From Streptomyces sp. NBC_00286 (GTDB taxonomy: Bacteria; Actinomycetota; Actinomycetes; Streptomycetales; Streptomycetaceae), in contig NZ_CP108054.1 in NCBI RefSeq assembly GCF_036173125.1, positions 248,001 through 312,000 of the forward strand: a stretch of 64,000 nucleotides of DNA, written 5' to 3'. Shown here piece by piece: positions 38,295-57,271 of this stretch. Below the pieces are notes generated by a model. The model saw only the letters and a list, made by a program, of their open reading frames with translations, did not search any database and had not been told where the DNA came from. Within the stretch, counting starts at the first letter, position 1, and every line of letters starts with the position of its first letter. Both the position numbers and the translations under genes were made by a program.

Positions 38295-40313
38295 ATGGCA
38301 CATCCCGACGCGTCCAGTCCACGCCAGAGGTCGGCATGGCGGCTTCTGCCGATCGCCTCGGCGGTGGTGACCGCGGCCGTCGGCACTCCTCTCGTACTCG
38401 CCGCACCGGACGCCGCACGCGTCTGGGTCGCGGGCACAGTCGTGGGGGCGGGCAGCTGCCTCGTCCTGCTCGCCGCGGCGGCCACTCGGCTGCACCGCAA
38501 GCTCACCTCGCAGGTGGACAGGTCGATGGCGGAGTCGGCGCGGCGCCGCTCCGAGGCGGAGTACCTGGCCGGCGCGGTGCTCCCGGAGCTGACCTCGGCG
38601 ATCGAGGACCCCACGAGCGGTCCCGTGTCCGCCGCAATGGGATCGGCCAGTGCCTGGCAGCCGACGGAGCCTCAACTCAGGGCTGTGCAGCACGCGGTGA
38701 CGGAGGCGCTGGGCGCGGCGCAGCGGCGCGCGGCCAGGGCGGACGGCGAGCGCGAGCAGGCGGTACGGGCCTGGGAGGCCGTCACCCGCGATCTGCAGAA
38801 GGCGACGTCGCAGATCCTGCCCACGGCGGTACGGAGACTGGGCGAGGGAGCCTCACTGGATACAGTCCGCGCGGAGCTGCGGCTGTCCCAGTTCTCCAGC
38901 ACCGTCGTGCGCGAGCTGGTGGACGCCGGCATACGCGAACTCGCGGTCAGCGAGCGGCGTTCCGCGGCGGCCCGGGCCGCCAGTGCGAAGGCGCTGAGCC
39001 GGGTGCAGGCCCAGGCCGTGGGCATCCTGGCGGATCTGCGGGAGATGCAGGACCGGCACGGCGAGGCGGTCCTCGGCGACCTGCTCGAGCTGGACCACAG
39101 CACCTCCCAACTCGGCCTCCTCACCGACCGGTTGGCGCTGCTCATGGGCGGACGGGCCAGCCGCTCCTGGAACAAGCCGATCCCGATGGAGAGCATCCTG
39201 CGCGGCGCCGTGGGCCGGATCGCCGCGTACCGCAGGGTCAGCCTCAACTGCGCCAGCAAGGCCGCCGTGGCCGGGTTCGCGGCCGAGGGCGTGATGCACC
39301 TCCTGGCCGAACTGATGGACAACGCGACCAGCTTCTCCGCGCCGATCGACCAGGTCCACGTCTATGTGGAAGAACGCTCCGCCGGCATCGTCGTCACCAT
39401 CGAGGACAGCGGCCTGAAGATGGCCGACGCCGCGCTGCGACGCGCCGAGGAGGCGGTGTCGGGCGCGATGAGCGACCTCGCCTCCCTCCAGGGGACTCGG
39501 CTGGGGCTCGCGGTCGTCGGGCGGCTCGCCGTCAAGTACGGCATCTCCGTCAGCTACCGCCCCTCCTCCCGCGGGGGCACCGGAGTCGTCGTACACCTGC
39601 CGGCCCAACTGCTCGCCCAGCAGCGCACGGCACTCGTGGAGCCCCCGTTGCACGACCCGTCGGCGCGACCGCGCGAGCGCATGCCGGCGAGCGCCGGGGG
39701 CACCGAGGCGCGGGCGGGCGACAGGCGGCGTGCGGCATCGGGTGGCGGTTCGCGGACGCCGGACACGCTGGACGGGTCGCGGACGCCTGGGACGCCGGAC
39801 ACGCTGGACGGGTCGCGGACGCCTGGGACTCCGGCCGCACCGGCCGGTTCACGGACGCCCAACGCCCCCGCCGCGACGGCCGGTTCGCGGACGCCGGACA
39901 CACCAGCCGCTTCGCCGATGCCCGACACTCCGGCCGCACCGCACAGTCCGCGGACACCCAACACCCCCTCCGCACGGGCCGGTTCGCGCATGCCGGACAC
40001 ACCGGCCCCCGCACCCGCCGCCTCCCCGCCGACCCCTTCCGCCCCGACCGGCGACAACGGTTCGGTGACCGCCAACGGCCTCCCGGTACGTCCCCCAGGT
40101 CGCACGATGGCGGCAGCCGAGCGTGTCCGTACCCCCGGGGAACGCCCGGCGGGCGGCCGACCCGCAGCCCGTGACGCCGGCAAGAGCTTCGGCGCCTTCC
40201 ACCGTGCGCGCCTCGCCGCGGCGGCCGGTGAGGCCGCGGCAGCCGAGGAGGCGGCCCGAGCCGCCGAACCGGCCGAAACGGCCGACCCGACCGACCCGCA
40301 CGACGCCGACTGA
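38295..40313 (+). CDS. cvnA: Conservon sensor-kinase-like protein CvnA
   Basis: A 672-residue membrane protein. There are two N-terminal membrane helices (about 12-35 and 42-62), a coiled helical region, and a HATPase domain with N-box ELMDNATSFS and a G-box-like GTRLGLAVVGRLA. The long C-terminal tail (about 485-580) is a low-complexity array of SRTPxTP units. CvnA proteins recruit the CvnB-D proteins at the membrane and act with the GTPase in a G-protein-coupled-like module that affects development and antibiotic production. The usual phospho-acceptor His box is not evident. First gene of a five-gene operon. Confidence 0.85.
   Translation: MAHPDASSPRQRSAWRLLPIASAVVTAAVGTPLVLAAPDAARVWVAGTVVGAGSCLVLLAAAATRLHRKLTSQVDRSMAESARRRSEAEYLAGAVLPELTSAIEDPTSGPVSAAMGSASAWQPTEPQLRAVQHAVTEALGAAQRRAARADGEREQAVRAWEAVTRDLQKATSQILPTAVRRLGEGASLDTVRAELRLSQFSSTVVRELVDAGIRELAVSERRSAAARAASAKALSRVQAQAVGILADLREMQDRHGEAVLGDLLELDHSTSQLGLLTDRLALLMGGRASRSWNKPIPMESILRGAVGRIAAYRRVSLNCASKAAVAGFAAEGVMHLLAELMDNATSFSAPIDQVHVYVEERSAGIVVTIEDSGLKMADAALRRAEEAVSGAMSDLASLQGTRLGLAVVGRLAVKYGISVSYRPSSRGGTGVVVHLPAQLLAQQRTALVEPPLHDPSARPRERMPASAGGTEARAGDRRRAASGGGSRTPDTLDGSRTPGTPDTLDGSRTPGTPAAPAGSRTPNAPAATAGSRTPDTPAASPMPDTPAAPHSPRTPNTPSARAGSRMPDTPAPAPAASPPTPSAPTGDNGSVTANGLPVRPPGRTMAAAERVRTPGERPAGGRPAARDAGKSFGAFHRARLAAAAGEAAAAEEAARAAEPAETADPTDPHDAD
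39755..40020 (+). repeat. 36-bp tandem repeat inside cvnA
   Basis: A 36-base unit (beginning GACGCCGGACACGCTGGACG) occurs at 39755-39790 and 39791-39826, then decays into related TPxTP-coding units up to about 40020. It encodes a 12-residue unit TPDTLDGSRTPG. It is in frame and makes a Pro/Thr/Ser-rich tail that can vary in length by slippage. Confidence 0.7.
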
Positions 40314-47372: not shown

Positions 47373-47657
47373 ATGGGGAACAGCGGGGGACGGCGCACTC
47401 AGGCCGAGCGGGACGCGATGACCGTCGAGATCGGCTACGCGCTGGCGAGTGCGGCGGTCGCGGCCGCCGTTGTCTTCGGGGCCATCGCCGGTCCGGCGCT
47501 GGTCTTCGAGCTGCCTGCCGGCGCCGAAGATCTGCTGCTCATGGCCGGGATGTGGCTCGCGGTCGTGGTCTTCTTCGTACGGGTGGTCAGTGTGCTGGTC
47601 CGTTTCGGGCGTGGGTCTCAGCCCAGCCAGCCCGGCCGCACCAAGCCCGACTCGTAG
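47373..47657 (+). CDS. DUF6332-like small membrane protein
   Basis: A 94-residue protein with two hydrophobic helices (about 22-45 and 52-72), preceded by RTQAERDAMTVEIGYALAS, which I associate with Streptomyces DUF6332 proteins. No function is known. The last 40 bases overlap the convergent response-regulator gene. No strong ribosome site is seen, so a leaderless start is possible. Confidence 0.6.
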   Translation: MGNSGGRRTQAERDAMTVEIGYALASAAVAAAVVFGAIAGPALVFELPAGAEDLLLMAGMWLAVVVFFVRVVSVLVRFGRGSQPSQPGRTKPDS

Positions 47658-48283
47658 GCCAGTACGACCAGTTGGGCCCGGTCGCGGGCGCCCAGCTTCA
47701 CCATCGTGCGGCTCACATGGGTCTTCGCCGTGAGCGGGCTGACGACCAGTCGGCGGGCGATCTCGTCGTTGGACAGCCCGATGCCCACCAGGGCCATCAC
47801 CTCCCGCTCCCGCTCGGTGAGTTCGGCGAGCGACTGAGCGGCAGCGGGCTCCTTGGACCGGGCCGCGAACTCGGCGATCAGCCGCCGCGTCACGCCGGGC
47901 GACAGCAGCGCGTCGCCGTCGACCACCGCCCTGACCGCGCGCAGGAGTTCGTCCGGTTCGGTGTCCTTGACGAGGAAGCCGGAGGCCCCGGAACGGATGG
48001 CTTCGAAGACGTACTCGTCGAGCTCGAAGGTGGTGAGCATGACCACCTTGATGTCCTGCAGCCCGCCGTCCTCCGTGATGCGGCGGGTCGCTTCGAGACC
48101 GTCGAGCAGGGGCATACGGATGTCCATCAGGACGACGTCGGGGCGCAGTTCACGCACCTTGCGCAGCGCCTCCTCGCCGTCGGCTGCTTCGCCGGCCACC
48201 TCGATGTCCTTCTGTGCGTCGAGGAGCGCCTTGAAGCCTGCGCGGACCAGTGACTGGTCGTCGGCGAGCAGTACGCGGATCAC
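47618..48283 (-). CDS. NarL/LuxR-type response regulator
   Basis: A 221-residue regulator. The receiver has ADDQSLVRAG and phospho-acceptor DVVLMDIRMP (about Asp54). The HTH domain is LTEREREVMALVGIGLSNDE...TAKTHVSRTMVKL. It is the partner of the histidine kinase encoded upstream with an ATGA overlap. It overlaps the convergent small membrane gene by 40 bases. Confidence 0.87.
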   Translation of the reverse strand: MIRVLLADDQSLVRAGFKALLDAQKDIEVAGEAADGEEALRKVRELRPDVVLMDIRMPLLDGLEATRRITEDGGLQDIKVVMLTTFELDEYVFEAIRSGASGFLVKDTEPDELLRAVRAVVDGDALLSPGVTRRLIAEFAARSKEPAAAQSLAELTEREREVMALVGIGLSNDEIARRLVVSPLTAKTHVSRTMVKLGARDRAQLVVLAYESGLVRPGWLG

Positions 48284-49563
48284 CGGTCCTCCTTGAGTTC
48301 GGCGAGCTTGGCTTTGCGTTCGAGCGGCAGCACGGCCAGTACCCGGAAACCGCCGTCCTCGCGCGGCCCAGCCTCGATCGTGCCACCCAGGGCCGCGGCC
48401 CGCTCCCGCATTCCGGCCAGTCCGTTACCGCCGCCGCCCGCGTCGGCGCCGGTCGCCGGTCCGTCGTCGTCGATACGGAGCTTCAAGGCGTCGTTCTCGT
48501 AGCGGAGCAGCACGCGCGCGTGCCGCGAACCGGAGTGCCGTACGACATTGGTCAGCGCCTCCTGCACGATGCGGAAGGCCGCGAGATCGGCACCCGGCGA
48601 CAGGGCCCGCCGCTTTCCCTCGGTCTCGACGCCGACGGTCAGTCCTGCGCTCGCGGCCTGCTCAACGAGTTCGGGCAGCCGGGAGAGTCCGGGCGCCGGC
48701 GCACGCGGCGCGTCACCGGGCGTGCGGAGCGTGTCGAGCACCTGGCGGACTTCGCCGAGGGCCTCCTTGCTCGCCGCCTTGATGGTGGTGAGCGCGGTAC
48801 GGGCCTGTTCCGGGTCGGAGTCGAGCAGGGCGAGGCCCGTGCCCGCCTGGACGTTGATGACCGAGATGCTGTGCGCCAGCACGTCGTGCAGTTCGCGGGC
48901 GATCCGCAGCCGTTCCTCGTCGGCGCGCCGCCGGGCCGCCTGCAGACGTTCCGTACGCTCCCGATCCCACTGCTCCCGGCGCACGCGGACCAGCTCGGAC
49001 ACCGCGGCGATGGCCACCATCCAGATGGCGACTGAGACGTCCTCGCCCCAGTCGCCCACCGTGTCCCCCTCCGGCGGCAGCCACTGATAGAGCCAGTGCC
49101 CCTCCAGCAGATGGGCCACCCACAGCAGGCCGAGCGCCGCCCAGGCCGCCCGCCGATGCCCGGCGACAACCGCGCTGAAGCAGGCGAGCGCGACGGTCAA
49201 GAAGATCGGGCCGTACGGATAACCGGCACCGAAGTAGAGCAGCGCCGACACCGCGACACCGAACACCACCAGCACCGGATACCGATGCCGCCACAGGAGC
49301 AGCAGGGTGCCCACAAGCAACAACGCCCGGGCGAGGAGGCCGAGGTGCTCGCGGGTAGCCTCCTGCTCCTGCGCGGCGAAGTTACTGCCGACCTGCACGA
49401 ACACGGTGAGCAGCAGCGTCGAACGCCACGGCCGGCGCGGCCGACTCTCCGCTGCCCAGTCATCGCCCTCGTTCCACCACGGCGGCCCGTGCCGCCATCG
49501 CCACGGGGGCCCACCGCGCGCCCAGGGCGGACCGCCGCACAGGCGTGTGCGCTGCTCTTCCAT
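48280..49563 (-). CDS. NarL-type membrane histidine kinase
   Basis: A 427-residue kinase with an unusual N-terminal GPPW motif repeated three times (GGPPWARGGPPWRW, GPPWW), then 4-5 membrane helices, a HisKA_3 box RIARELHDVLAHSISV (His) and a HATPase domain with GGGGNGLAGMRERA. The signal is unknown. ATG 49563 is supported by a TAGCGT -10-like box 7 bases upstream on the minus strand, consistent with a leaderless mRNA. The longer upstream frame overlaps a TetR gene. Confidence 0.83.
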   Translation of the reverse strand: MEEQRTRLCGGPPWARGGPPWRWRHGPPWWNEGDDWAAESRPRRPWRSTLLLTVFVQVGSNFAAQEQEATREHLGLLARALLLVGTLLLLWRHRYPVLVVFGVAVSALLYFGAGYPYGPIFLTVALACFSAVVAGHRRAAWAALGLLWVAHLLEGHWLYQWLPPEGDTVGDWGEDVSVAIWMVAIAAVSELVRVRREQWDRERTERLQAARRRADEERLRIARELHDVLAHSISVINVQAGTGLALLDSDPEQARTALTTIKAASKEALGEVRQVLDTLRTPGDAPRAPAPGLSRLPELVEQAASAGLTVGVETEGKRRALSPGADLAAFRIVQEALTNVVRHSGSRHARVLLRYENDALKLRIDDDGPATGADAGGGGNGLAGMRERAAALGGTIEAGPREDGGFRVLAVLPLERKAKLAELKEDR

Positions 49564-49700: not shown

Positions 49701-50441
49701 TCAGGCCCCCGACCTGCTGCTGTCTCGTGCTCCTCCCATGCCGGTGTCCTGAGGGAACACCAGGCCGACGCCATGGCCGAGTTGGGCGGCGGCGTGCCGG
49801 AAGAAGGCTTCGCGGTCCTCCACCACGCGGTTGAACTGGCCGAACAGCTCGAAGCCGATCAGCCCGAACAGCTGGGCCCAGGCCGCGACGAGGGCCGTCA
49901 CCACCTCCGGCGGCAGATCCGGTGCGAGGTCCTGGGCCAGCCGCTGTGCCTCCGGCTTGAGCTCGGCGGGCAGGCGGGGCAGGGCGACGCCCACGCCCCG
50001 GTGCGCGTCCCGGACGATCTCGATGAGCAGCAACGCGACCCGGGACGCCGCGGGCACGGTCGAGTCGGGGGCGGCGTATCCGGGCACGGGCGAACCGTAG
50101 ATCAACGCGTACTCGTGCGGATGCGCGAGCGCCCAGCCACGCACCGCCTCGCACACCACTGCCCAGCGCCGGATCGGGCCGGCGTCGGCGACCTTCTCGT
50201 GCGCGGCCTCCGCACTCTCGCCCAACGAGTCGTAGGCGTCGATGATGAGGGCGGTCAACAGGTCGTCGCGGCTGGGGAAGTAGCGGTACAACGCGGAGGA
50301 GACCATGCCGAGTTCGCGGGCCACGGCCCGCAACGAGAGCTTGGCGGCGCCTTCCTTCGCGAGCTGTCTGCGCGCCTCGTCCTTGATGGCCGCGGTGACT
50401 TCGGTCCTGGCTCGGGCGCGGGCTCCTCGGGCGGTACTCAT
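49701..50441 (-). CDS. TetR-family regulator (WHG domain), next to operator array
   Basis: A 246-residue TetR regulator. The HTH is LSLRAVARELGMVSSALYRYFPSRDDL. The C-terminal part (EAVRGWALAHPHEYALIYGSPVPGY) is the WHG type. ATG 50441 lies 22 bases before the first clear unit of an array of near-palindromes that fills the gap to the divergent DDN-family gene. The regulator is the natural candidate to bind the array and to repress itself and the divergent gene. Not proven. Confidence 0.82.
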   Translation of the reverse strand: MSTARGARARARTEVTAAIKDEARRQLAKEGAAKLSLRAVARELGMVSSALYRYFPSRDDLLTALIIDAYDSLGESAEAAHEKVADAGPIRRWAVVCEAVRGWALAHPHEYALIYGSPVPGYAAPDSTVPAASRVALLLIEIVRDAHRGVGVALPRLPAELKPEAQRLAQDLAPDLPPEVVTALVAAWAQLFGLIGFELFGQFNRVVEDREAFFRHAAAQLGHGVGLVFPQDTGMGGARDSSRSGA

Positions 50442-50463
50442 GCCGGGCAGTGTGCCATGAATT

Positions 50464-50779
50464 CGGAGCACTGCACACAAACGTGAGCGGTGCTCTGGAT
50501 TCGGATCGACGCTCTCGCGCCGCCGCAACGCCCCGGACCGAGATCAACGCTCTACCGCGAGATCAACGCCCAGGTCCGAGAGCAGCGCTCCAGCTTCGAG
50601 AGCAGCGCTCGAGCCGGAGAGCAGTGCTCCGCCCTGAGAGCAACGCTCAACTCAGAGAGCAAGAATCGAGTCCGAGAGCGGCACTCAACTCCGAGAGCGG
50701 TGCACACACCCGAGAGCACTGCTCTTGCTTTGGATCACCGATCTCGTGCACACTGCTCTCAAGCGAGAGCAGTGCTCTC
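50464..50779. repeat. Array of about 17 near-palindromic 15-bp sites, 19-bp period
   Basis: Consensus GAGAGCArYGCTCTC. Units start at 50464, 50483, 50502, 50521, 50540, 50559, 50578, 50598, 50617, 50636, 50655, 50674, 50693, 50712, 50731, 50746 and 50765. All steps are 19 bases except one of 20 and one of 15. The last unit, GAGAGCAGTGCTCTC, is a perfect palindrome; 50578, 50598, 50617 and 50712 are close; 50521 and 50655 are the weakest. A possible extra degenerate unit lies at 50443. The array occupies the whole 367-base gap between the TetR start and the DDN-type start, except the last 29 bases. Open frames in it are only a by-product of the repeat. Confidence 0.9.
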
Positions 50780-50808
50780 GCAACCGACCTCAACCACTGG
50801 GGGACCCC

Positions 50809-51261
50809 ATGACGGCACAGCAGCGCTACATCAAGCCCGGCGGCTTCGAGGCCGGCATGAACCGCTTCATCGGCTGGCTCGCCCGCCGCGGCCTCAGCCT
50901 CGTCGGCAGCGCCGAACTCTCCGTCCGCGGACGCAAGAGCGGCGAGTGGCGGCGCGTGCCGGTCAACCCCCTCCCGTACGAGGGCGGCCCCTACCTCGTC
51001 TCGGCGCGCGGCCACTCCGAGTGGGTGCGCAATCTCCGGGCGGCCGGCGGCGGGCGGCTCCAAGTGGGCCGCAAAACGCGGGAGTTCACGGCCGTGGAGC
51101 TGCCCGACGAGGAGAAGCCCGTCGTCCTGCGCACCTACCTCAAGAAGTGGGGCTGGGAGGTCGGCCGCTTCTTCGGTGACGTCACGGCCAAGTCCAGCGA
51201 CGAGGAGCTGCTCGCCGCCGCGCACAACCACCCCGTCTTCCGGATCACCGTCAAGGACTGA
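50809..51261 (+). CDS. F420-type (DDN family) nitroreductase-like oxidoreductase
   Basis: A 150-residue deazaflavin-dependent nitroreductase-family protein with the split-barrel motif LSVRGRKSGEWRRVPVNPL and YLVSARGHSEWVRNLRA, typical of F420-binding enzymes such as Ddn. The ATG follows GGGGGA. It is directly downstream of the operator array and therefore very likely controlled by the divergent TetR. Substrate unknown; quinones and unsaturated compounds are common for the family. Confidence 0.8.
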   Translation: MTAQQRYIKPGGFEAGMNRFIGWLARRGLSLVGSAELSVRGRKSGEWRRVPVNPLPYEGGPYLVSARGHSEWVRNLRAAGGGRLQVGRKTREFTAVELPDEEKPVVLRTYLKKWGWEVGRFFGDVTAKSSDEELLAAAHNHPVFRITVKD

Positions 51262-51287: not shown

Positions 51288-52490
51288 TCAGCGGTCGAGG
51301 GCGGTCAGAGCGCGCCCCGCCATGGGATGCGTACGGACGATCTCACCGAGCGAGGTCGCCCCACGGGTGATCCCCGTGAACGCCTTCCAGGCGGGCCGGA
51401 AGCCCGTGAGCGCCGCGTGGAACATACCGGGACGGCGGGCGAAAACGATGAGCAGGCGTTTTCCCACGCTCATTTCGACGCCCAGTCCCGCCTTGATGGC
51501 GAAGGCGTAGTTGAGGGCCTGTCGCCGGGTGTCCACGGCGTCGTGTGCCTCGGAGATCCGTACCGCCCACTCCCCCGCGAGCCGCCCCGACCGCAGCGCG
51601 AACGAGATGCCCTCGCGGGTCCACGGCTCGAGCAGCCCCGCCGCGTCCCCGCACACCAGCACCCGCCCGCGAGAGAGCGGCGAGTCGTCGGCGCGGCACC
51701 GCGTCAAATGCCCCGAGGAGATGCTCGGCTCGAAGCCGGCGAGCCCGAGCCGGGCGGTGAAGTCCTCCAAGTACCGCTTGGTGGCGGCTCCTTCACCGCG
51801 CGCCGAGATCACACCGACGGTGAGGGTGTCGCCCTTGGGGAAGACCCAGCCGTAACTGCCGGGCATGGGGCCCCAATCGATGAGGACGCGCCCCTTCCAG
51901 TCCTCTGCGACGGTCTCCGGTACGGGAATCTCCGCCTCCAGGCCGAGGTCGACCTGGTCGAGCTTCACCCCGACGTGTGCTCCTATCCGGCTGGCGCTGC
52001 CGTCCGCGCCGACCACGGCCCGCGCCAACACGGTCTCGCCGTCCTGCAGTACGACGGCCACGGTGCGCCGGTCCGGTACGGCGGAGCCATGCTGTTCCAC
52101 CCGTGCGACCGTGACGCCGGTGCGCAGTTCGGCGCCCGCCTTCTGTGCGTGCTCGACGAGCCGTTGGTCGAACTCGGGCCGGTTGATGAGCCCGAAGAGC
52201 ATCTGCTTGGAGCGGCGGGTGCGGGTGAACCTGCCGTCGAGCGAGAACGTGACCGCGTGCACCCGGTCCCGGAGCGGCAGCTCGAAGCCGGGCGGCAGGG
52301 CGTCGCGCGAGGGGCCGATGATGCCGCCGCCGCACGTCTTGTAGCGGGGCAGCTCCGCCTTCTCCAACAGGAGCACGCGGCGCCCCGCGACCGCTGCCGC
52401 ATAGCCCGCCGAGGCGCCCGCGGGCCCCGCACCGACCACGACGACATCCCATACCCGCTGTGCGTCGCCCGAAGAGTTCTCGCTGCTCAC
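51288..52490 (-). CDS. Geranylgeranyl-reductase-family FAD oxidoreductase
   Basis: A 400-residue flavoprotein with the FAD motif VVGAGPAGASAGYAAA, the family motif KTCGGGIIG, and GDAAGLLEPWTREGISFALRSG. Such enzymes reduce isoprenoid chains, as in lipid or menaquinone side-chain reduction (MenJ-like). The start is GTG 52490; the longer frame upstream has no support. It converges on the DDN-family gene. Confidence 0.8.
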   Translation of the reverse strand: MSSENSSGDAQRVWDVVVVGAGPAGASAGYAAAVAGRRVLLLEKAELPRYKTCGGGIIGPSRDALPPGFELPLRDRVHAVTFSLDGRFTRTRRSKQMLFGLINRPEFDQRLVEHAQKAGAELRTGVTVARVEQHGSAVPDRRTVAVVLQDGETVLARAVVGADGSASRIGAHVGVKLDQVDLGLEAEIPVPETVAEDWKGRVLIDWGPMPGSYGWVFPKGDTLTVGVISARGEGAATKRYLEDFTARLGLAGFEPSISSGHLTRCRADDSPLSRGRVLVCGDAAGLLEPWTREGISFALRSGRLAGEWAVRISEAHDAVDTRRQALNYAFAIKAGLGVEMSVGKRLLIVFARRPGMFHAALTGFRPAWKAFTGITRGATSLGEIVRTHPMAGRALTALDR

Positions 52491-52678
52491 GATGGTCCGC
52501 TGCTCCGATCCAGCCGCCTGCCGCTCCTGCCTCCCGCATCCTACGGCGGACCCCGGCGCAGACCGCTGTGGGAGTATCGGCAGCGTATGCACGAGGCGCA
52601 CCCGTACGCGCGTGCATCCCTCACGTACCAACCACACGTACCCAGCCGTACAACGTCGCACCTACGAGGAGCGTGCCC

Positions 52679-57014: not shown

Positions 57015-57038
57015 GCCGATGCGGGCAGGCTGACCGCC

Positions 57039-57235
57039 GCGCTCCGTTCGGCCGAGCCGGGTCCGGTCGACGCGGCAAGCGCCGCCTGGCGCCGGCCTCC
57101 GCGCTCCGTTCGGCCGAGCCGGGCCCGGACGACGCGGCAAGCGCCGCCTGGCGCCGGCCTCCGCGCTCCGTTCGGCCGAGCCGGGCCCGGACGACGCGGC
57201 AAGCGCCGCCTGGCGCTGACCGCCGCGCTGTTCGG
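57039..57235. repeat. 62-bp tandem repeat with hairpins between convergent genes
   Basis: The unit beginning GCGCTCCGTTCGGCCGAGCC starts at 57039, 57101, 57163 and (partial) 57225, exactly 62 bases apart. Each full unit contains GCGGC-AAGC-GCCGC, a 5-bp GC stem, and a GGCGCCGGCC segment. It sits in the gap between the GH27 stop and the ROK stop and probably acts as a bidirectional terminator made of tandem hairpins. Confidence 0.8.
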
Positions 57236-57271
57236 CCAAGCAGCTCGTACGAGATCCCGCGCGGCGCGGCG

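Follow-up and report, generated by a model that had tools for sequence, protein, structure and literature searches.

A conserved, length-variable array of 19-bp-spaced palindromes in the gap between divergent TetR-family and DDN-family genes of Streptomyces, with a probable role as an operator region

Operators of TetR-family regulators usually comprise one site or a few. What, then, is the role of an intergenic region in which an operator-like near-palindrome follows itself 17 times at an almost constant distance? Such a region lies in the window, by which we mean the whole stretch of 64,000 nucleotides from Streptomyces sp. NBC_00286 analysed here, and it covers 316 of the 367 bp that separate a TetR-family gene from a divergently oriented gene of the DDN (deazaflavin-dependent nitroreductase) family. 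The features of the locus are as follows.

47618..49560, minus strand: two-component genes (histidine kinase, response regulator), downstream of the TetR gene
49704..50441, minus strand: TetR-family regulator, 246 aa, PF00440 (TetR_N) and PF13305 (TetR_C_33); proposed binder of the array
50464..50779, no strand assigned: array of 17 near-palindromes resembling GAGAGC-RNY-GCTCTC, period 19 bp, with one step of 20 and one of 15
50464..50497, no strand assigned: TetR-proximal unit pair; a site near the TetR start is common in orthologous loci
50540..50707, no strand assigned: interior units, variable in number
50712..50779, no strand assigned: DDN-proximal core, strong site-19-weak-15-weak-19-strong
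50809..51261, plus strand: DDN-family oxidoreductase, 150 aa, PF04075/TIGR00026; proposed divergent target
51288..52550, minus strand: geranylgeranyl reductase family FAD oxidoreductase, adjoining the DDN gene

A chain search of the window recovered the array just as the preliminary description had given it, with 17 units joined by 14 steps of 19 bp, one of 20 and one of 15, and a perfect palindrome as the last unit (50765-50779). Matched to the core GAGC-N3-GCTC, seven units have all 8 letters, five have 7, four have 6 and one has 5, so that the five units with at most 6 of 8 are clearly degenerate. The period is nevertheless plain: at lags 19, 38 and 57, the region has an autocorrelation of 0.53, 0.48 and 0.41, and at the other lags from 5 to 59 one of at most 0.34. 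The chain scores 29.5, compared with a best of 5.0 among 1000 dinucleotide-preserving shuffles and of 3.0 among 2914 random window pieces of the same length. When nominal periods from 11 to 30 were compared, the runner-up to 19 was 20 (score 12.0), the rule for which also permits 19-bp steps. Within the window array, the mean information content is 1.5 bits for the eight core columns and 0.44 bits for the five spacer columns counted, indicating that the motif is kept while the spacers diverge. The centre of the unit reads R-N-Y in 89 of 93 units from seven arrays, namely that of the window and six of the distal arrays described below. Scans of the TetR-DDN gap gave 0 matches for a sigma-70-like promoter, the terminator scan likewise gave 0 matches, and no Rfam match of the array was found. 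The letters TTGCTTTGG (window 50725-50733) lie between two neighbouring units, the last strong one ahead of the 15-bp step and a weak one; by eye, they recur in several of the genus pattern matches and could belong to the DDN promoter. The window holds other repeats as well, i.e., a 62-bp tandem repeat of 3.3 copies with 94% matches at 57037-57241, and overlapping tandem repeats with periods that include 27, 36 and 99 bp at 39746-40003.

To see how far this arrangement extends, we collected orthologous loci, taking the best 80 of at least 507 related stretches from named genomes and examining all 80. A DDN-family gene lies divergently opposite the TetR gene in every one, as it does in the window, across a gap of 120 to 394 bp. 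The 81 chains have 2-17 units (median 5); the window holds the maximum and the other 80 loci have 2-13. Their steps are overwhelmingly of 19 bp (284), followed by 15 (26), 34 (6), 38 (5) and 20 (4). Distances between good sites (7-8 of 8 core letters) peak at 19, 38, 57 and 76 bp and then at 53 and 72 bp, the last two each including one 15-bp step. A 15-bp step was assigned to 26 of the 81 chains, and the DDN-side order strong-19-weak-15-weak-19-strong recurs among loci. At the opposite end, 52 of the 80 orthologous loci (counted by eye) have a good site 32-37 bp upstream of where the TetR match begins. All orthologues but L043 and L096 (78 of 80) have, in the 1.2 kb upstream, at least one pair of good sites 19, 38 or 57 bp apart. 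The TetR-DDN array is thus a conserved architecture; its 19-bp period is kept at orthologous loci and its length varies among strains, both of which the preliminary description had singled out for comparison.

The nearest comparison shows where the length changes. In Streptomyces scabichelini (L020), whose TetR is 93% identical to that of the window, the DDN-proximal block is identical over 76 bp, which include the whole DDN-proximal core, and the TetR-proximal end is nearly so, while the gap is 214 bp instead of 367 bp. The difference of 153 bp amounts to about eight units and falls in the interior, the exact edges of the extra stretch not being fixed by the alignment. Total gap lengths across loci are not clearly quantised at 19, which is not their best period, a comparison that differences in start codons may blur. 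As to the neighbourhood, L134 and L147 likewise have a histidine kinase and a response regulator downstream of the TetR gene, and L149 has the kinase there (by eye, from gene calls). The DDN neighbours in the 80 loci fall into two groups, 48-58% and 62-87% identical to the window DDN, which suggests two DDN types at the same place.

Is the adjacent TetR the protein that reads the array? Its N-terminal helix-turn-helix domain is present (PF00440, 46.3 bits against a cut-off of 24), with GMVSSALYRYF as the recognition helix. The predicted fold is TetR-like and all-helical, with a mean pLDDT of 78.2 in a model from 24 sequences that is weak in the helix-turn-helix part (residues 31-60 average 49-67 per block). 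A Foldseek comparison of the model with the PDB gave TetR-type regulators as best matches (E 1e-11; top 5d1r). By sequence and fold together, the nearest solved structures are Rv1816 (5d1r) and SCO4313 (2oi8), 37% and 34% identical to the window TetR in the Foldseek alignments. Six further genes of the genome match PF13305; a motif finder found a GAGC array at 0 of the five that were examined (the L193 gene itself is uncalled).

More telling is a comparison of recognition helix and upstream motif over 142 rows, made up of the 80 orthologues, another 3 from Streptomyces and 59 rows of more distant homologues chosen from search lists; the rows share ancestry, and two genes are counted twice. Where the helix has the residues V-S or A-S, an exact GAGCN3GCTC lies upstream in 87 of 88 rows; the exception, L188 (A-S), has a GAAC motif, and its alignment carries an insertion. 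Where the residues are V-P, GAACN3GTTC is found in 7 of 8 rows and the GAGC motif in none, with one gene counted twice. These V-P paralogues are L180, L183, L184, L189, L191, L192 and L200, of which L189 alone has neither exact motif. By count, a 19-bp partner site is present in 3 of the 8 V-P rows. In the remaining 46 rows, the GAGC motif is absent throughout and the GAAC motif occurs in two (L187 and L244). Three genomes from another family of the order have both helix types, with each gene next to the motif of its type (L180/L181, L183/L182 and L184/L185). S-type homologues of that other family, only 44-46% identical, keep the 19-bp partners and a 34-bp (19+15) step. Because the recognition-helix residues covary with the motif, the window TetR is likely to bind the array at its own locus, in line with the earlier proposal of an operator-like array for the adjacent regulator. 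The S/P switch suggests a simple specificity rule, GAGC versus GAAC, for this TetR clade.

The consensus also occurs far from the TetR-DDN locus. In the source genome, three further arrays lie within 6.6 kb (G000:C1:7537120-7543727), and places with two units occur at several other loci.

G000:C1:7537120-7537211 (L008 7121-7212): array of 5 units inside a Gfo/Idh-type oxidoreductase gene
7540517-7540737: array of 11 units upstream of the arginyl-tRNA synthetase gene
7543675-7543727: array of 3 units inside a gene with weak similarity to methyltransferases

The genes of this stretch are those for the Gfo/Idh protein, a Bcr/CflA transporter, arginyl-tRNA synthetase and the methyltransferase-like protein, and the in-gene arrays of the set recur in several other genomes. 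Across 121 genomes of the genus, a three-unit pattern with at most 3 mismatches gave 279 matches in 56 genomes, own loci included, compared with 7 matches in 6 genomes for the reversed control. A two-unit pattern was found in 41 of 121 genomes and its control in none, counts that overstate arrays because some matches (G006, G039, G071, G074 and G083) are terminator-like inverted repeats. We read 30 loci with pattern matches: 23 gave chains and 7 (L338, L343, L345-L349) had no chain at threshold, and the same loci reversed gave none in 361 kb. The distal arrays span 3-19 units and have the same motif and period as the own-locus array. With the same place in relatives merged, and with gene ends from a home-made GC3-based caller that makes the assignments rough, there are 23 distinct distal arrays: 9 in codirectional, 5 in convergent and 2 in divergent gaps, 4 within genes and 3 unassigned. 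Those in convergent or in-gene positions cannot be ordinary operators. Several distal arrays contain higher-order copies, so that growth by block duplication is likely. The longest, of 19 units (L341 5772-6125), contains a repeated multi-unit block and lies upstream of a gene that reads by eye as oxidoreductase-like. An array of 15 units (L342 5850-6126), in whose later part strong and weak sites alternate, is flanked by a MarR-like gene and an MFS transporter gene, judged by eye from their starts. The preliminary description had counted the consensus at unrelated loci against its proposal. The consensus does occur at such loci; since it often does so again as 19-bp arrays, the finding is widened, and the idea of a sponge for the regulator becomes more plausible.

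Across the genus, arrays are associated with the presence of the TetR. We scored a genome as TetR-positive on a match at E < 1e-50 (86 of 121), and for most comparisons dropped three incomplete genomes, leaving 85 TetR-positive and 33 TetR-negative genomes that are at least 90% complete; none of the p values takes account of the relatedness of the genomes. At least one three-unit match is present in 49 of 85 TetR-positive and 5 of 33 TetR-negative genomes (p = 3e-5, partly driven by own-locus arrays), at least three in 22 of 85 and 1 of 33 (p = 0.004), and at least five in 14 of 85 and 0 of 33 (p = 0.010). Over all 121 genomes, the last comparison becomes 14 of 86 versus 1 of 35 (p = 0.064), the sole TetR-negative exception being G050, an 82% complete genome with 24 three-unit matches and no TetR orthologue found. 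G006, which is complete, has 3 three-unit matches and no TetR match; two of the three overlap a terminator-like inverted repeat. Single sites average 13.9 per TetR-positive and 9.5 per TetR-negative genome (p = 3e-5, 118 genomes, own-locus sites contributing), with no difference for the reversed control.

The array inside the Gfo/Idh gene behaves otherwise. Its codon choice is biased towards the motif: in each of six chosen genomes that have the array, not one of 5000 synonymous shuffles attained the observed score. Among the 70 of 81 homologues examined, the z score of this bias ranges from -0.8 to 5.4 and is at least 4 in 16 genomes. The array score does not differ with the presence of the TetR (33.2 in 53 TetR-positive versus 32.1 in 17 TetR-negative genomes, p = 0.57). 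G022 and G026 keep the array with clear synonymous bias and have no close TetR homologue; at E <= 1e-8, the one match is a protein of another helix type in G022, 38% identical. In G109, the array is weaker than in its TetR-positive relatives. These results do not support a dependence of the Gfo/Idh array on the TetR. Such TetR-free arrays may be either relics or sites of another protein with the same preference.

Taken together, the analysis makes it probable that the array is an operator region common to an autoregulating TetR and the divergent DDN gene, occupied by cooperative dimers, with the distal arrays as extra targets or decoys. Each 15-bp near-palindrome would hold one dimer. A step of 19 bp is about 1.8 helical turns, so adjacent dimers would wind round the DNA, each rotated by about 70 degrees and close enough to touch its neighbour, and weak units could be filled through contact with strong ones. 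Two anchored ends, the strong-weak-15-weak-strong block on the DDN side and the unit pair just upstream of the TetR start, are predicted to cover the two promoters, so that dimers lying side by side would repress both genes. The variable interior units might render repression both tighter and steeper and sequester regulator. Cooperativity, helical winding and the all-or-none switching already raised in the preliminary description are what we infer and did not observe. The distal arrays, which share the motif and period, most likely provide the same regulator, or one closely related to it, with additional sites; those upstream of genes would act as extra operators and those between convergent genes or within genes as titrating decoys. 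We count against this operator model the Gfo/Idh array, its retention in G022 and G026, the matches in G050 and G006, the odd rows L188 and L189, the gap length not clearly quantised at 19 and the lack of a sigma-70-like promoter match in the gap. More tentatively, and with less confidence than we have in the operator model, the TetR could be a sequence-guided DNA-coating protein that forms helical side-by-side runs on 19-bp arrays, both at its own autoregulatory locus and at scattered places. Scattered arrays might then set the level of free TetR, as a built-in sponge, or shape the chromosome, and strains might tune the response through copy number as arrays grow or shrink by 19-bp units or blocks.

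Other explanations have to be set against the operator model. The persistence of in-gene arrays in TetR-free genomes, and the lack of any obvious link between distal arrays and a single gene class, could mean that the distal arrays are bound mainly by another, widespread DNA-binding protein that prefers the same motif, for which the TetR-DDN locus is one of many targets. We consider this unlikely: the TetR recognition helix covaries with the motif at its own locus, none of the 33 sufficiently complete TetR-negative genomes has five or more three-unit matches, and no candidate protein was identified. Rather unlikely, too, is a mostly neutral array, in which tandem duplication of a 19-bp operator unit yields passengers and only the end units matter. 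It would account for the different interior lengths of close relatives (367 versus 214 bp), for the higher-order duplications in some distal arrays and for the several degenerate units, but not for a conserved core among diverged spacers in the window array, nor for the motif-biased codon choice of the Gfo/Idh array in the six chosen genomes.

We find it improbable that the arrays are chromosome-organising sites coated by a TetR-family protein in the manner of SlmA or RefZ and form no transcriptional operator system at all. These two proteins are TetR-family precedents, and 9 of the 23 distal arrays are convergent or in-gene by our rough gene calls. However, the most conserved array occupies a classical operator position, the divergent TetR-DDN gap (81 of 81), and distal positions differ among genomes at the places listed, whereas RefZ sites, according to the parts of the source consulted, are fixed relative to oriC (PMC6657595). 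Least credible of all is that the array serves replication or partition in the manner of iterons, or acts as a tandem-hairpin RNA element, a reading to which we assign very little probability. Tandem palindromes of constant period do resemble iterons, and every unit could fold as a short RNA hairpin. Yet the window lies within a single contig of 9.85 Mb, the motif tracks the TetR helix, and the array has neither an Rfam nor a phage match. An iteron-like origin, one of the functions first proposed, also fits poorly with an array that accompanies the TetR-DDN pair at all 81 loci and whose further neighbours are the two-component system and a geranylgeranyl-reductase-like oxidoreductase. No replication initiator was found among the five neighbour genes scanned (approximately 3 kb on each side), which are regulators and oxidoreductases. 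Two candidates were accordingly dropped: an iteron or plasmid element, as the TetR matched 4 plasmid records, none of which reached 60% identity, and the array DNA is without a phage match; and a known RNA family, for want of an Rfam match.

The conserved, length-variable array offers a natural series, from 2 to 17 units, in which to study the effect of operator number on a genetic switch. Transcription-factor titration is known mainly from synthetic decoys, and the arrays scattered outside promoters provide a testable natural case. Among the literature matches listed, judged by titles and the starts of abstracts, there was no natural counterpart of a 19-bp TetR array, and nothing was found on an operator of Rv1816 in the literature searched; PMC12093943, in the part seen, concerns a different TetR.

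How does the array compare with known systems? Among the closest known systems is EthR of Mycobacterium, which places several dimers along one long operator as a cooperative octamer on 55 bp (cited in PMC9210681). The trait of several adjacent sites on one operator is present here, in the form of 2-17 units at mostly 19-bp steps; the EthR operator, as far as the text at hand describes it, is a single compact 55-bp site with neither a 19-bp array of up to 17 units nor distal arrays. Streptomyces SCO7222 has three TGGAACGNCGTTCCA copies at a divergent pair and, with other divergent TetR regulators of the genus, shares the divergent enzyme gene, the repeated palindromic operators and the logic of genome context; the portion consulted gives three repeats of another motif and reports no constant short period (PMC3511530). 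QacR, CgmR and RolR bind as two dimers (PMC9210681) and DarR makes direct contacts between dimers (PMC10636190), so that all four resemble our model in having TetR-family dimer pairs on one operator, but, in the passages available, with two dimers per site and, for DarR, overlapping palindromes. Neither a long 19-bp array nor arrays scattered outside promoters appear in the descriptions of EthR, QacR, CgmR, RolR, DarR or SCO7222 in those excerpts. RefZ and SlmA belong to the TetR family, have chromosomal sites other than ordinary operators and are reported to bind as multiples or to spread (PMC6657595). The same source, in the sections seen, places five RefZ motifs in B. subtilis at positions fixed relative to oriC and describes no arrays, whereas a conserved divergent neighbour gene is a feature of the window TetR.
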